A stretch of DNA of 64,000 nt from a virus: positions 1 to 64,000 of IMG/VR virus record IMGVR_UViG_3300009419_000010. One strand, written 5' to 3'. The position numbers and the translations under genes are program-made. Each line of letters opens with the position of its first letter. Within the stretch, counting starts at the first letter, position 1. The notes beneath the pieces were generated by a model. It had not been told where the DNA came from and did no database searches. It saw only the letters and a list, made by a program, of their open reading frames with translations. Shown one piece after another: positions 19,858 through 58,452 of this stretch.

Positions 19858-21173
19858 TGATAGAAATTGATTTTGATTATTTTGAAAAGGTTCTTGTGAA
19901 GAACGCGATCACGAATGGTGCTTTTCTGGCATCCATTGCTGATTATGTTCAACCCAAGTATTTCACGGATAAAAATATTGCGAAATATTTTGAGATTGTT
20001 GCAGATTTCTACGAGAAACGACAATCTCTTCCCACATTCACAGAGGTGAAGACATATCTCACGACAGATGAACTCAAAACCAACTTTAAAAAGTTAATTG
20101 AGTCATTCAAAGAGATTGATTCCAATCACAATCAGGATGAATTGTATGAGAATACTGAAAGATTCCTCAAGGAAAGAGGTATGTATCACTCTATTTTGGA
20201 GTCCGCAGAGGCAATTTCCGAAGGAGAAGCTGATACTGCCGAGATCGTAGAGAAATTTGAGAAGATTGCTGGTATCAATCTTAATGTTGATAAAGGAATT
20301 GAGCTTTATGGTGATGTTGAAAAGGTCATTGATGACATTTTGAGTGATGAAACCACCATTTCTTCCAAATGGGCATGGTTAGATGAAGCACTAGGAGGTG
20401 GATTCCAAGAAGCTGGTAAGGCATTGTATGTGTTCGCGGGTCAATCCAACATTGGTAAGAGTATTTTCCTTGGTAACGTGGCAGCAAACATCGCATCACA
20501 GGGTAAACATGTGCTTGTGGTGACTCTGGAGATGTCGGAAACGCTCTATGCTAAGAGAATTGCGTCCAATGTGACAAAGATTCCGATGAAAGAGTTCCGA
20601 AATTGTGTTCCAACGCTTCGACATGCCCTTGAACAAGAGCATAAAAACACTGATGGTAGGATTTATATCAAAGAATTCCCCCCATCTACGATTACCCCTA
20701 AGCAATTGGGAGCTTTCATCAAGAAAATGAAGGATTCTGGTATCAGAATCGATGCTGTGGTGCTTGATTACATCACTTTAATGACTGCTGCTGGTAGTAA
20801 CAGCTATGAAAAGGGTAAAAACATCTGTGAACAAGTCAGAGCATTGTCATATGTCTATAAATGCCCTATCATCTCAGCTTGTCAGTTGAATAGATCTGCT
20901 GTTGGACAAAATAACCCTGATATGTCAGGTGTTGCCGAGTCTTTGGCGATTGTTATGACTGCTGATGTGATCGCATCTATCTTCCAGAACGAAGAAGACC
21001 AAGAAATGGCAGTAATTCGTCTGGGAATGATGAAAAATAGGTTCGGACCGAGAGGAATGACACAAGCTATGAGAATTGATTACCCAACACTCACTGTGCA
21101 TCAATCGGAAGATGATGAAGAAGAGTTGATGAATGATAATGAATTGAGTCTTTTGGAGAAGTTGAGCGATTAA
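19857..21173 (+). CDS. 41: replicative helicase, DnaB-like (gp41)
   Basis: 438 residues. An N-terminal helical domain (1-150) is followed by a RecA-fold ATPase with Walker A GQSNIGKS (about 190-197), Walker B VVLDYITLM and a Q-rich motif (SACQLNR). T4 gp41 (475 aa) unwinds the fork and pairs with primase gp61, found here at 27852. Overlaps its neighbours by one base at each end. Confidence 0.93.
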   Translation: MIEIDFDYFEKVLVKNAITNGAFLASIADYVQPKYFTDKNIAKYFEIVADFYEKRQSLPTFTEVKTYLTTDELKTNFKKLIESFKEIDSNHNQDELYENTERFLKERGMYHSILESAEAISEGEADTAEIVEKFEKIAGINLNVDKGIELYGDVEKVIDDILSDETTISSKWAWLDEALGGGFQEAGKALYVFAGQSNIGKSIFLGNVAANIASQGKHVLVVTLEMSETLYAKRIASNVTKIPMKEFRNCVPTLRHALEQEHKNTDGRIYIKEFPPSTITPKQLGAFIKKMKDSGIRIDAVVLDYITLMTAAGSNSYEKGKNICEQVRALSYVYKCPIISACQLNRSAVGQNNPDMSGVAESLAIVMTADVIASIFQNEEDQEMAVIRLGMMKNRFGPRGMTQAMRIDYPTLTVHQSEDDEEELMNDNELSLLEKLSD

Positions 21174-22069
21174 TGAATACCCTTGACAAATTTATAAAAA
21201 ATTGTAGGTATGACATGTCAAAGTGTTTCGCTTGGGTTAATAGTGATTTGGATGGTATTGGTTCTACAGTCCTTCTAGGTAATTTATTTAAGAATTTTGA
21301 GTATCGCCACTGCTTCTTCGGTAAGTTTGAGGAGCAATACCTACCTTGGGCTAAAGAAAATGCAGAAGATTATGATAAAATCTTCGTAGTCGGCATGGTT
21401 TTAGATCAAAATCTCATCAAAAAGATTGATGATCATCGTGTGGTGTTCGTTTCAGACCGTCCCGAAGACTTTAAAACATGGGATTCCACCATGATTCAGG
21501 AAGAATGTTCATCTTGCACCAAGATGTTGTATAAAAAATTCAAAGAAAAGGTGGAATTTACGAAAGATTTGAAAAAATTCTTCCTATACGTCGATGATTA
21601 CAATTCATATGATCTGAAACACGAAGAAACCAAGTATCTCAATGCTCTTTATCGTAAATCTGGTGGAAATCGCTTTATTAATTTTGTAAATCGCTTCTGG
21701 AACGGGTTTGACGGGTTCACTACCACAGAAGTTAAGCTTGCTGAAGGTTTTTTCAAGGAATTAGAAAAAGAATTGGAGCAAATTCAACTATTCACAGGAG
21801 AATGGGAAGGATTTAAGGTCATTTCCACGATTTCTAAGTTCTCCGTGAATGAATTGAGCCATTCCATTATGGAAAATTATAAAGGAGACGCTGTAATTGT
21901 AATGAACCCTGATACAAAATTCGTTTCTTTTAGAAAATGTAAAGGATCGGAGGTTGACATTGCTAAAATGGCTGCTAATCTGTGTGACGGTGGTGGCGGC
22001 GAATGGGCATCAGGAGGTAAAATCACCAAGGAATTTTTGAAATTCAGCGAAACACTTACAGAATTATGA
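21173..22069 (+). CDS. DHH-family phosphoesterase (NrnA-like)
   Basis: 298 residues. WVNSDLDGIGSTVLL near residue 21-35 corresponds to the first DHH-family metal motif, VVFVSDRPED replaces the DHH box region, and the C-terminal GGGGEWASGGKI matches the glycine-rich DHHA1 substrate-binding loop. Such enzymes degrade short oligonucleotides or cyclic dinucleotides. The canonical Asp-His-His triplet is not obvious (SDRP in its place), so the active site may have diverged. Located between gp41 and the Tat-like protein in a tightly overlapped operon. Confidence 0.7.
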   Translation: MNTLDKFIKNCRYDMSKCFAWVNSDLDGIGSTVLLGNLFKNFEYRHCFFGKFEEQYLPWAKENAEDYDKIFVVGMVLDQNLIKKIDDHRVVFVSDRPEDFKTWDSTMIQEECSSCTKMLYKKFKEKVEFTKDLKKFFLYVDDYNSYDLKHEETKYLNALYRKSGGNRFINFVNRFWNGFDGFTTTEVKLAEGFFKELEKELEQIQLFTGEWEGFKVISTISKFSVNELSHSIMENYKGDAVIVMNPDTKFVSFRKCKGSEVDIAKMAANLCDGGGGEWASGGKITKEFLKFSETLTEL

Positions 22070-22611
22070 AAAGAAGAACATTTTTAGGAGCATTGGGAGC
22101 TTTGTTTCTCCCCACAGTAGCAGTAGCGAAAACAATTGTAGAAAATAAAATCACGCCCCCAACAGAGGAAGAAGATTTTTATCAATTCTTTTTAAATTTT
22201 AACGGATTTCCAATCAATGAAATGCAAAAAGGTATGTTCCGTTTTTATAAAAACGGATACACTTCAAATGCTTATGGGCGACAACTTGGCGTATCCACAT
22301 TCATGTTGACATTAGCAGCATGGGAAGCATTTAAAGGTAAAACAGTTGTCCATTTTTCATCAAATCAATATTTACGTGATAAAATTAGAAGAAAATATTA
22401 TGAAAATATTGACAAACATTTTGAAAAATATTGTGATGGTAAATTTCCAGGTATTAATTTTGATAGTATCGAATCGCAAAATAGGGGATATATGATGAAA
22501 AAATATGATGTGGCATTATTAGATCAATCTAGCCCATATTATCACGAAGCATGGTCTGCCATTGCTCCGTCAGTTAAAAAAACATTATTATTAAAAACAT
22601 ATGAGTTTTGA
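22066..22611 (+). CDS. Tat-signal-like protein with degenerate terminase-type ATPase domain
   Basis: 181 residues. The N-terminus MKRRTFLGALGALFLPTVAV carries a twin-arginine-type motif (RRTFL), a hydrophobic stretch and an AVA cleavage-like site. The remainder follows the layout of a large-terminase ATPase domain: GRQLGVST aligns with the Walker A of gp17 (SRQSGKTT in the terminase of this window) with Lys replaced by Val, and VALLDQ aligns with Walker B LLLDE with Glu replaced by Gln, followed by HEAWSAIAP like the T4 gp17 segment HDSWLAIQP. It has no nuclease domain. This suggests an inactive, possibly exported paralogue; function unknown. Confidence 0.6.
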   Translation: MKRRTFLGALGALFLPTVAVAKTIVENKITPPTEEEDFYQFFLNFNGFPINEMQKGMFRFYKNGYTSNAYGRQLGVSTFMLTLAAWEAFKGKTVVHFSSNQYLRDKIRRKYYENIDKHFEKYCDGKFPGINFDSIESQNRGYMMKKYDVALLDQSSPYYHEAWSAIAPSVKKTLLLKTYEF

Positions 22612-22885
22612 TCCATCATCAGAAATTGTGGAAGAGGAAACAAATCACCTCTTCCTATGCTATTGTTCCTTTATAAATCATCTTAAAGGAAAAAAATTAT
22701 CTATTCAAAATGTTTTCGTGACTACTCTCCAAGAAGAGAAACTGAAAACAATACTGAAAACGATATTGTCGCTTGATTCCGATCAGGAATTGGTTAGAGT
22801 ATTTTTAGACTATGATCCTACTATTTCACGTAGTAAGTTCATCACGAAATACATCAACTCGGAGCAGAAAAAAAGAAAGAAATGA
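22601..22885 (+). CDS. hypothetical protein, 94 aa, in the position of T4 gp33
   Basis: Unrecognised, helical with a very basic C-terminus (SEQKKRKK). In T4 the order is 33-59-32; this gene lies two genes before gp32, so it occupies the place of the late co-activator gp33. No gp33-type C-terminal clamp-binding hydrophobic tail is visible, so the identity is only a positional suggestion. It overlaps both neighbours. Confidence 0.65.
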   Translation: MSFDPSSEIVEEETNHLFLCYCSFINHLKGKKLSIQNVFVTTLQEEKLKTILKTILSLDSDQELVRVFLDYDPTISRSKFITKYINSEQKKRKK

Positions 22886-32535: not shown

Positions 32536-33030
32536 TTAGAATCCTAATTTATTACAAGTATTATCTATACATTTTGGAATTAAAATTGTTGGAATAGTAG
32601 TCGTAGTAGTCGTGGTAGTTGTAGTAGTTGTAGTGGTCGTGTTTGTTATATTGATATTTAAAGGATTTAAAGTGCTTGGTGGTGTCAACGAAACCGATAA
32701 TGGTGGTATAGAGATAGTGGTAAAATTCGGCACAATAGGTGGTAAATTTACCGTGACTTCTGGTGGAGGTACGCAACATTTTTCAGTTGTTGTTTCAGGT
32801 GGAACAGTTGTTGTTGGCGGTGGAGTCGTTGTAGCAGTGGTAGAAGTAGACGTAGAAGTAGAGGTAGATGTAGAAGTAGATGTAGTAGGTGGAGGAGTAG
32901 TAGATGTAGAGGTAGATGTAGAGGTAGATGTAGTAGGTGAAGGAGTAGTAGATGTAGTAGGTGGAGGAGTAGTAGATGTAGTAGGTGGAGTAGTAGTAGT
33001 AGTAGGTTGAAAAGTAGTAGTAGTAGACAT
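32536..33030 (-). CDS. mucin-like Thr/Ser/Pro-rich virion protein
   Basis: 164 residues. Residues 2-80 are almost entirely Thr, Ser and Pro in TTSTTPPP and STSTST units; a second poly-Thr tract lies near 130-146. Between them is a short Val/Pro/Leu-rich beta segment and a CC pair; the C-terminus has two further cysteines. Such composition suits an extended, O-glycosylated or flexible display or stalk segment on the tail. TAAATC stands 11 bases before the ATG. Immediately followed by a glycosyltransferase. Confidence 0.75.
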   Translation of the reverse strand: MSTTTTFQPTTTTTPPTTSTTPPPTTSTTPSPTTSTSTSTSTSTTPPPTTSTSTSTSTSTSTSTTATTTPPPTTTVPPETTTEKCCVPPPEVTVNLPPIVPNFTTISIPPLSVSLTPPSTLNPLNINITNTTTTTTTTTTTTTTTIPTILIPKCIDNTCNKLGF

Positions 33031-47407: not shown

Positions 47408-48544
47408 ATGCCTAAGATTTCCCAATATGATCCAGCGACAACACCTCTATCTGGTGGTGAGACTTTTATTTTGAATCAAAAAGGGGTAACATACAATACT
47501 TCTTTAAGCTCTATCAAAAATTATACGGACACCACACTTCGTAGCTTATCCGCTAATTATGCTAGAGTGAACGTTAATAATAATTTTTCAACGACTCAAA
47601 CTTTTGCTACAAGTGCGATCAATATAGGCAGCTTACCGATTAGCGCAACACGAGCTAATAGCTTTTTTGTAGGTAAAAGTGCTGGTAATGGTGCTACAGG
47701 TGTAACTGGTTCCAATTTCATAGGTAAGAATGCTGGTAGTGGTGCTACATTTGCAGGTTATTCCAATTTTATAGGTCAAGATGCTGGTAGTGGTGCTACA
47801 AATGCGAGTAGTTCTAACTTTTTGGGGCAAAATGCTGGTAAAGACGCTCTAACTTCTAATGGTTCTAATTTCATAGGTCAGGATGCTGGTGTTGGTGCTG
47901 AAAATGCAAGTGATTCTAACTTCATAGGTAGTTTCGCTGGTAAATATGCATCAGATTCTAGTACATCTAATTTCTTAGGTTATAAAGCTGGTTATCTTGC
48001 TGTATTTGCATTCGACTCTAATTTCTTAGGTAGAAATGCTGGTCATCAATCTAGTGTCGCTATGGCAGGTGCAAATAATTCCAATTTTTTAGGATATAAT
48101 GCTGGTGATGTTGCTACCTATGCAAATAATTCCAATTTCTTAGGTCAGAATGCTGGTGGCGGTAGCACTGGTGTCTATGCTTCAAATGCAGGTTATTCTA
48201 ATTTCTTCGGTCAGAATGCTGGTTATGGTGCTACAAATGCAAGTAATTCTAATTTCTTTGGTAAGGATGCTGGTAGTGGTGCTACAAATGCAAATAATTC
48301 TATTTTCATAGGTGAAGAAGCTGGTGCTAATGCTATTAATGCGAATAATTCTATCTTCATTGGTTCTAACTCTGGAGCATCTTTATCTGGTTGTATTGCT
48401 TTAGGCACTGGTGCTGTCCCTACTGCACGTAATCAATTTGTTCTTGGTTCATCATCAGTTCCACTATCAACAGTAGACGGTGGCAATTCTTTAGTTATAA
48501 GAATAAACGGCACTCTTAAAAAGATAGCTTTGCTTTCTGTCTAA
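47408..48544 (+). CDS. tail fibre/adhesin made of 17-residue repeats
   Basis: 378 residues. After a fibre-like N-terminus (about 1-85) come roughly 13 tandem units of usually 17 residues with consensus SNFxGxxAGxGATxAxx (residues about 90-325), ending in a capping block RNQFVLGSSSVPLSTVDG. The spaced Phe/Ile, Gly and Ala suggest a beta-roll or YadA-head-like solenoid. DNA identity between units is high enough to allow recombination. Likely an exposed receptor-binding fibre. Confidence 0.78.
   Translation: MPKISQYDPATTPLSGGETFILNQKGVTYNTSLSSIKNYTDTTLRSLSANYARVNVNNNFSTTQTFATSAINIGSLPISATRANSFFVGKSAGNGATGVTGSNFIGKNAGSGATFAGYSNFIGQDAGSGATNASSSNFLGQNAGKDALTSNGSNFIGQDAGVGAENASDSNFIGSFAGKYASDSSTSNFLGYKAGYLAVFAFDSNFLGRNAGHQSSVAMAGANNSNFLGYNAGDVATYANNSNFLGQNAGGGSTGVYASNAGYSNFFGQNAGYGATNASNSNFFGKDAGSGATNANNSIFIGEEAGANAINANNSIFIGSNSGASLSGCIALGTGAVPTARNQFVLGSSSVPLSTVDGGNSLVIRINGTLKKIALLSV
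47681..48377 (+). repeat. tandem coding repeat, about 51 bp unit
   Basis: In-frame repeats within the fibre gene: each unit contains a variant of TCTAATTTCTTAGGT followed by GCTGGT. Some units are longer (20-22 residues), showing unit expansion. Confidence 0.75.
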
Positions 48545-57681: not shown

Positions 57682-58452
57682 ATGGCTGGAACTACCATTG
57701 AAAATTTAGGCAAAGCAACAGAATACGATCAATGTCCTGCTATTTATATTTTAAAAAATAATAAAAACGGTAAGGTTTATGTCGGAGAAACTATGAATTT
57801 GAGACAGCGAGTATATTCATATCATAAATCAAATATAGATACCCCTAGACCTATATTGAGAGCTATCAATAAACATGGTTTAGAAAATTTTTCATTCGAA
57901 TATCAATATTATCCTGATATGTCTAAGGACGAATTATTGGATATTGAAGAGAGATTAATAAAAGAACACAATAGTTTAATGAGTGGAAGCGGATACAATG
58001 TTTGTTCAAGAGGGCAAAATAGATATTTAGCAACACAATCTCTTGAAGCTCGTAAAAAAAGGAGTGAAATTTTTAAAGGGAGAGTCATTACAGAAGAATG
58101 GAGAGAAAACATGTCAAAAGCCAAGAGTGGAGAGAACCATCCAATGTATGGTAAAAAAATGTCAGAGGAGACGAGGAAAAAAATGGGCGATTCCAGAAGA
58201 GGTGAGAGAAATGGGAGATATGGGAAGAAAATGTCTGAAGAAGCTAAAAGAAAAATGGTAGAAAATTTACCAAATAAAGTATGTGTATCACAATATACAA
58301 AATCTGGTGAATTTGTTAAATCTTATTTTTCTATAGCTGAAGCTGCGAAACAAACTGGAATAGATAGTCGTCATATAAGTGCGGTGTGTAATAATAAAAA
58401 TAGAAAAACATCTGGTGGTTATATTTGGAAAAAAGACACACTTCATCACTAA
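57682..58452 (+). CDS. GIY-YIG homing endonuclease with NUMOD domains
   Basis: 256 residues. The GIY-YIG domain (about 18-105) has AIYILKNNKNGKVYVGET and the catalytic Arg in LRQRVYSYH and Glu in IEERLIKEHN. Two NUMOD3-like repeats follow (GENHPMYGKKMSEETRKKM, then GERNGRYGKKMSEEAKRKM), then a C-terminal NUMOD1-like helix-turn-helix ending SGGYIWKK. A free-standing homing enzyme inserted between sheath and tube genes; its first codons and promoter resemble those of the tube gene downstream. Confidence 0.92.
   Translation: MAGTTIENLGKATEYDQCPAIYILKNNKNGKVYVGETMNLRQRVYSYHKSNIDTPRPILRAINKHGLENFSFEYQYYPDMSKDELLDIEERLIKEHNSLMSGSGYNVCSRGQNRYLATQSLEARKKRSEIFKGRVITEEWRENMSKAKSGENHPMYGKKMSEETRKKMGDSRRGERNGRYGKKMSEEAKRKMVENLPNKVCVSQYTKSGEFVKSYFSIAEAAKQTGIDSRHISAVCNNKNRKTSGGYIWKKDTLHH

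Follow-up and report, generated by a model that had tools for sequence, protein, structure and literature searches.

The locus at 22066..22611 (+ strand) raises the question of what a small terminase-like protein that has lost both catalytic residues does in a phage with a packaging motor of its own, and where it does it. This locus lies in the window, which is the whole stretch of 64,000 nucleotides analysed here and belongs to a viral contig 108,762 bases long. The source is a large uncultured T4-like phage, which carries its real packaging motor plus the small pseudo-terminase gene. The large terminase of this phage (gp17; 51981..53753, + strand) contains intact SRQSGKTT and LLLLDE segments. 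The pseudo-terminase consists of 181 aa, and all segments cited in the first-pass annotation (MKRRTFL, GRQLGVST, VALLDQ and YYHEAWSAIAPSV) are found in its open reading frame. In three related phages (L060, L062 and L063), the gp17 frames are interrupted by internal stops or enlarged (949 aa), a pattern expected from an intron or intein.

Genomic setting and evolution of the gene

The pseudo-terminase gene is located between the gene for a DHH phosphoesterase family protein (21173..22069, + strand; PF01368 below the cut-off, phrog_26954 with an E value of 3.7e-9) and a gp33-like 94-aa ORF (22601..22885, + strand). Its ATG and the stop codon of the DHH gene overlap (ATGA), and at its 3' end it runs into the 94-aa ORF, which starts at 22601. 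These overlaps on both sides suggest that translation is coupled. The order of the operon is DnaB-type gp41 (19857), DHH (21173), pseudo-terminase, 94-aa ORF, 209-aa ORF, gp32 (23523) and clamp gp45 (24870), and the proximity of the gp41, gp32 and gp45 genes bears out the proposed position in a replication operon. The 94-aa and 209-aa ORFs are taken as gp33 and gp59 by gene order, neither having a convincing family match. Elsewhere in the window, a GIY-YIG-type endonuclease-like ORF (57682-58452) is present between gp18-like and gp19-like genes, a 164-aa ORF consisting almost entirely of Thr/Pro/Ser repeats (32536-33030, - strand) is present in a tail-fibre-like cluster, and an ORF with a tandem SNFLGQNAG-type repeat (47408-48544) is present beside baseplate-like genes.

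The gene is optional. Direct searches detect close relatives with identities of 82-99% and one with 54%, and divergent members are added when the slot is fetched through the DHH gene and broader alignments are then used. Four of these (L038, L080, L082 and L087; 29-35% identity) have their own Tat-like signals, and three (L036, L020 and L022; 25-42%) have a different N-terminus. Among 30 distinct slots, which are those reached through the DHH gene and those of L003, L005 and the window itself, 10 contain a family member, 3 contain another ORF, and the other 17 are empty, so that the DHH gene directly adjoins the gp33-like ORF. The slot of L013, in which the DHH frame is split, is counted as empty. 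No family member is detected elsewhere in the searched records whose slot is empty or otherwise occupied, these records being contigs that may be incomplete, and no relative of the family is detected in a scan of bacterial and archaeal genomes. In G006 (L064), phrog_2 has a second match, which was recognised by eye as a PhoH-like protein and is not counted as a pseudo-terminase.

The core of the family changes, by divergence or by swapping, far more rapidly than the genes around it. The window protein and L005 are identical in the first 36 residues, whereas their identity is about 15-60% per 20-residue block past residue ~60 and 41% over residues 36-181. The dN value between them is 0.515 for the pseudo-terminase gene and 0.021 for the DHH gene. 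The mid-core of L036 is nearer to that of the window protein than that of L005 is, even though L036 has the other N-terminus and L005 shares that of the window protein, so that members appear to have reassorted their N-termini and cores. L002, L018, L082 and L087 have free-standing GIY-YIG-like endonuclease ORFs, recognised by eye, no more than a few kb away, which may be a means of such exchange. No order of events is drawn, because the core tree is weakly supported, with many nodes below 75. Between members of 72-90% identity, dN/dS is 0.10-0.35, with some dS values near saturation. The family is under purifying selection, and the ORF of the window is a real gene under selection.

The degenerate ATPase core and its relatives

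Residues ~38-181 are predicted to adopt a terminase/SF2-helicase P-loop fold, on which AlphaFold2, Foldseek and profile comparisons concur, so that the terminase-type ATPase fold read from the sequence stands and no unrelated fold emerges. In the AlphaFold2 model (11 sequences), the block-mean pLDDT is 84-96 across most of residues 31-180, lower at residues 121-150 (71-81) and below 50 for residues 1-28, and the strands and helices of the core are arranged in P-loop order. When this model is compared with the PDB by Foldseek, it matches the PhiV-1 terminase in the Avs3 complex (5.7e-5), the ATPase domain of the P74-26 terminase (2.8e-4), the T4 gp17 ATPase (4.1e-4) and the HK97 terminase (9.8e-4), all with a probability of 1.00. 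A reverse-gyrase helicase domain ranks slightly above the terminases, and the best matches also include DEAD-box domains. Structure alone therefore assigns the protein just to the wider SF1/SF2/terminase class. Many terminases and some small uncharacterised proteins are matched in the viral library. The PhiV-1 terminase is also the top match (2.1e-5) of a second model, that of the divergent L036, which is built on an alignment overlapping that of the window model and is not fully independent of it.

Conservation within the core is highest at residues 38-60 (FYxFFxxFNGFPINxxQKxM; 22177..22245, + strand), a block that is aligned with the Q-motif region of gp17. This block is followed by a degenerate Walker A motif, GRQLGVST (residues 71-78; 22276..22299, + strand), in which Lys is replaced by Val, and by a degenerate Walker B motif, VALLDQ (residues 149-154; 22510..22527, + strand), in which Asp is kept and Glu is replaced by Gln. 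The C-terminal strand LLLKTYEF (22585..22608, + strand) can be matched with the gp17 ITSTPNG (motif III) strand only by forcing a global alignment. The protein stops after the ATPase core, without a C-terminal RNase-H-like nuclease domain. Thus, both the replacement of the catalytic residues and the missing nuclease, as first described, hold.

The Walker-A Lys and Walker-B Glu are absent from all 11 aligned members of the family, in which Lys is replaced by Val, Thr or Ala, and Glu by Gln, Cys or Asn; these members include close groups (the window protein with L002 and L003; L080 with L082) and do not represent 11 independent losses. The same 11 all share the Walker-B Asp, the Arg and Gly in the Walker-A-like segment, and the Gln in the Q-motif-like block, and the remainder of the Walker-A-like loop varies (GVST, GVTT, GTTT, GVSI, GATT and GATV). 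The signal-less homologues (L036, L020 and L022) also retain an R-x-x-G-x-(S/T)-like segment. The likeness to gp17 previously seen in HEAWSAIAP, where gp17 of the window reads VEDFWRSVYPTIS, is weaker than first described: it is confined to the closest relatives and has disappeared from L005, L038 and L087. The order RG-x(4-5)-hhhhD is common to the family and gp17 (LRGKSYDVCLYDC and IRGSNPSIALFDN versus ARGKTINLLLLDE).

When the family core is compared by hhalign with the 86 ORFs of the window of at least 100 aa, gp17 ranks first after the core itself (58%; next 9%). The UvsW-, gp46- and gp44-like ORFs, represented by single sequences only, are outside the best 15 of this ranking. The local alignment with gp17 covers both Walker motifs as well as the Q-motif region. 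With multi-sequence profiles, the hhalign probability is 93.5% between the family and T4 Vs.8, 92.9% between Vs.8 and gp17, and 64% between the family and gp17. Nine control profiles score 6.9% (gp41 helicase) or less than 1% against the family (UvsX, 0.16%). Over 16 related phage records, the family profile matches only family members and, weakly, the Walker-A region of gp17, which is its sole non-family match in the window's own record (E value of 0.0036). PF03237 (T4-type terminase) is the top Pfam match of L020, with an E value of 0.028, below the cut-off. The window protein itself yields nothing usable in Pfam, in NCBIfam or in PDB sequence searches with a single sequence or a profile, and matches phrog_2586 weakly (E value of 0.003). 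Its tblastn matches to cultured phages are weak (E value of 0.04 or worse); those to Asteriusvirus-type baseplate proteins are treated as chance, and a Gordonia terminase is matched with an E value of 0.2. The phrog_2586 match of L121 is a UvsX-like ORF and not a family member.

The phrog_2586 match led to T4 Vs.8 (PHROG 1488) and small proteins of Aeromonas T4-like phages (PHROG 2586). By profile comparison, the nearest relative of the window family is this uncharacterised, catalytically intact family of stand-alone mini-terminases. The resemblance to gp17 proposed in the first-pass annotation is sustained among the ORFs of the window, but gp17 is not the closest relative. T4 Vs.8 (AF158101 64253-64912, - strand; L124) contains intact GRQSGKS and IIDEP segments and is matched in 975 phage records; it is annotated merely as a conserved hypothetical protein, and as a terminase in a few relatives. 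To our knowledge, no function of Vs.8 has been published, and no account of its function or of an exported pseudo-terminase is found in the open-access literature. Both types are stand-alone proteins of ~150-220 aa with a terminase-type P-loop core, encoded by T4-like phages separately from gp17. However, the Vs.8-type proteins have an intact Walker-A GK(S/T), within GRxSGK(S/T), and an intact Walker-B Glu, within (D/E)E, both the Lys and the Glu being present in all 12 aligned, and have no Tat-like signal. In addition, the Vs.8 gene adjoins denV in T4 (Tevenvirinae; Merlin was also examined), whereas the window gene lies between the DHH gene and the gp33-like ORF. The window protein shares the fold of the ATPase subdomain and the motif order with gp17, but is one third its length, lacks the nuclease and the catalytic residues, and is encoded elsewhere in the genome. 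The window family is thus probably a dead, mostly signal-bearing relative of a known but uncharacterised kind of mini-terminase.

The twin-arginine-like N-terminus

Residues 1-22 of the window protein (22066..22131, + strand) form a Tat-like signal, with an n-region (MKRR), an RRTFL motif, a hydrophobic h-region and a possible cleavage site (AVA|K). A strict Tat-like pattern is detected in only one of the 129 ORFs of the window, the pseudo-terminase, and in 10 of 972 distinct ATG ORFs across all loci examined, nine of which belong to the window family; shuffled window ORFs pass the same rule at 0.09%. This concentration bears out the twin-arginine-like N-terminus first noticed. RR-x-F-(L/I) is kept in the divergent L038, L080, L082 and L087 (variants across members being RRTFL, RRNFI and RRSFL), and the maximum 13-residue hydropathy of the signals is 1.8-2.2. 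A lysine is located close to the end of the hydrophobic stretch in some members, and a lysine at this position disfavours Sec export. The family resembles Tat signals in RR-x-F-(L/I), in the moderately hydrophobic stretch and, in some members, in a possible A-x-A site. However, the window protein does not reach PF10518 (TAT_signal), which gives only a weak match in L087 (E value of 0.18, below the cut-off). The N-terminus is likely a signal or membrane anchor, and the pseudo-terminase may be exported by the Tat pathway.

The signal is not shared by all members of the family. It is present in 8 of the 11 aligned members, and the remaining three (L036, L020 and L022) carry another N-terminal module of ~85 aa (MKLYEIQHIN...; 7340-7594 of L036) on the same dead core. 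This module has no hydrophobic stretch and no family match, and is modelled with low confidence.

Possible role of the pseudo-terminase

Our preferred explanation, to which we give a little less than an even chance, is that the dead mini-terminase is a non-enzymatic binding protein, which in the window version is exported by the Tat pathway and acts at the envelope. Every member has lost both catalytic residues but kept the fold and the conserved block, which suggests binding without hydrolysis, and the signal carried by most members suggests a place at the envelope. The protein would be a stand-alone ATPase domain of the terminase type, catalytically dead and related to T4 Vs.8 as a degenerate form, that works by binding something and not by burning ATP; it would be expressed together with the replication genes, probably through translational coupling. 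The twin-arginine signal of the window version would send the folded domain into or across the inner membrane of the host. The absence of ATP outside the cytoplasm would fit the loss of Lys and Glu with the fold kept. The protein would most likely act at the envelope, for example by binding a membrane or periplasmic factor of the host or by excluding competing phages; no sequence match to a known superinfection-exclusion protein is detected in Pfam or PHROGs.

Export cannot be the sole cause of the loss of catalysis, because the signal-less L036, L020 and L022 are equally dead, and these members keep a cytoplasmic decoy or regulator as the main rival. According to this rather unlikely alternative, the N-terminus just tethers the protein to the membrane or plays no part in export, and gp17 is mimicked in the cytoplasm by the dead domain, which tunes the motor or occupies Avs-type immune receptors by which the host recognises large terminases. 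The Avs3-bound PhiV-1 terminase is among the best structural matches, and the domain evolves or is exchanged at a much higher rate than the neighbouring genes, as expected in an arms race. However, most members keep the Tat-like signal, with an N-in/C-out charge pattern that would place the domain outside the cytoplasm. The protein might instead be a non-hydrolysing sensor, which holds a nucleotide or nucleic acid in its cleft and works as a switch, as the invariant Asp, Arg, Gly and Gln residues would allow. This is distinctly unlikely, because every member lacks the main phosphate ligand, the Walker-A Lys, and the rest of the loop varies.

That the likeness is just to SF1/SF2 helicase P-loop domains in general, and not to terminases, is suggested by the reverse-gyrase and DEAD-box domains among the best Foldseek matches. 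It is highly improbable, because the profiles pick Vs.8 and gp17 and give little to DnaB-type gp41, the RG-x(4-5)-hhhhD order is common with gp17, and a terminase family is the top, albeit below-cut-off, Pfam match of L020. A decaying, functionless remnant of a terminase or Vs.8 gene would be in accord with the loss of both catalytic residues and the absence of the gene from many relatives, but is barely credible, because the frames are open in all members, the fold and block 38-60 are conserved at 25-35% identity, and the purifying selection seen between close pairs already disfavours it.

Binding at the envelope, the preferred reading, also has a wider form, which is doubtful at present: a packaging-motor ATPase fold may have been turned into a Tat-exported, ATP-independent envelope effector, one of a set of exported pseudo-ATPases with interchangeable dead domains. 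If export is true, a motor domain would have been re-used outside the cytoplasm; if it is not, the protein is a candidate terminase decoy. The finding ties the unnamed T4 gene vs.8 to the packaging motor and indicates that the mini-terminase kind has an inactive, probably signal-bearing branch, and through T4 vs.8 the question can be addressed in a laboratory phage.
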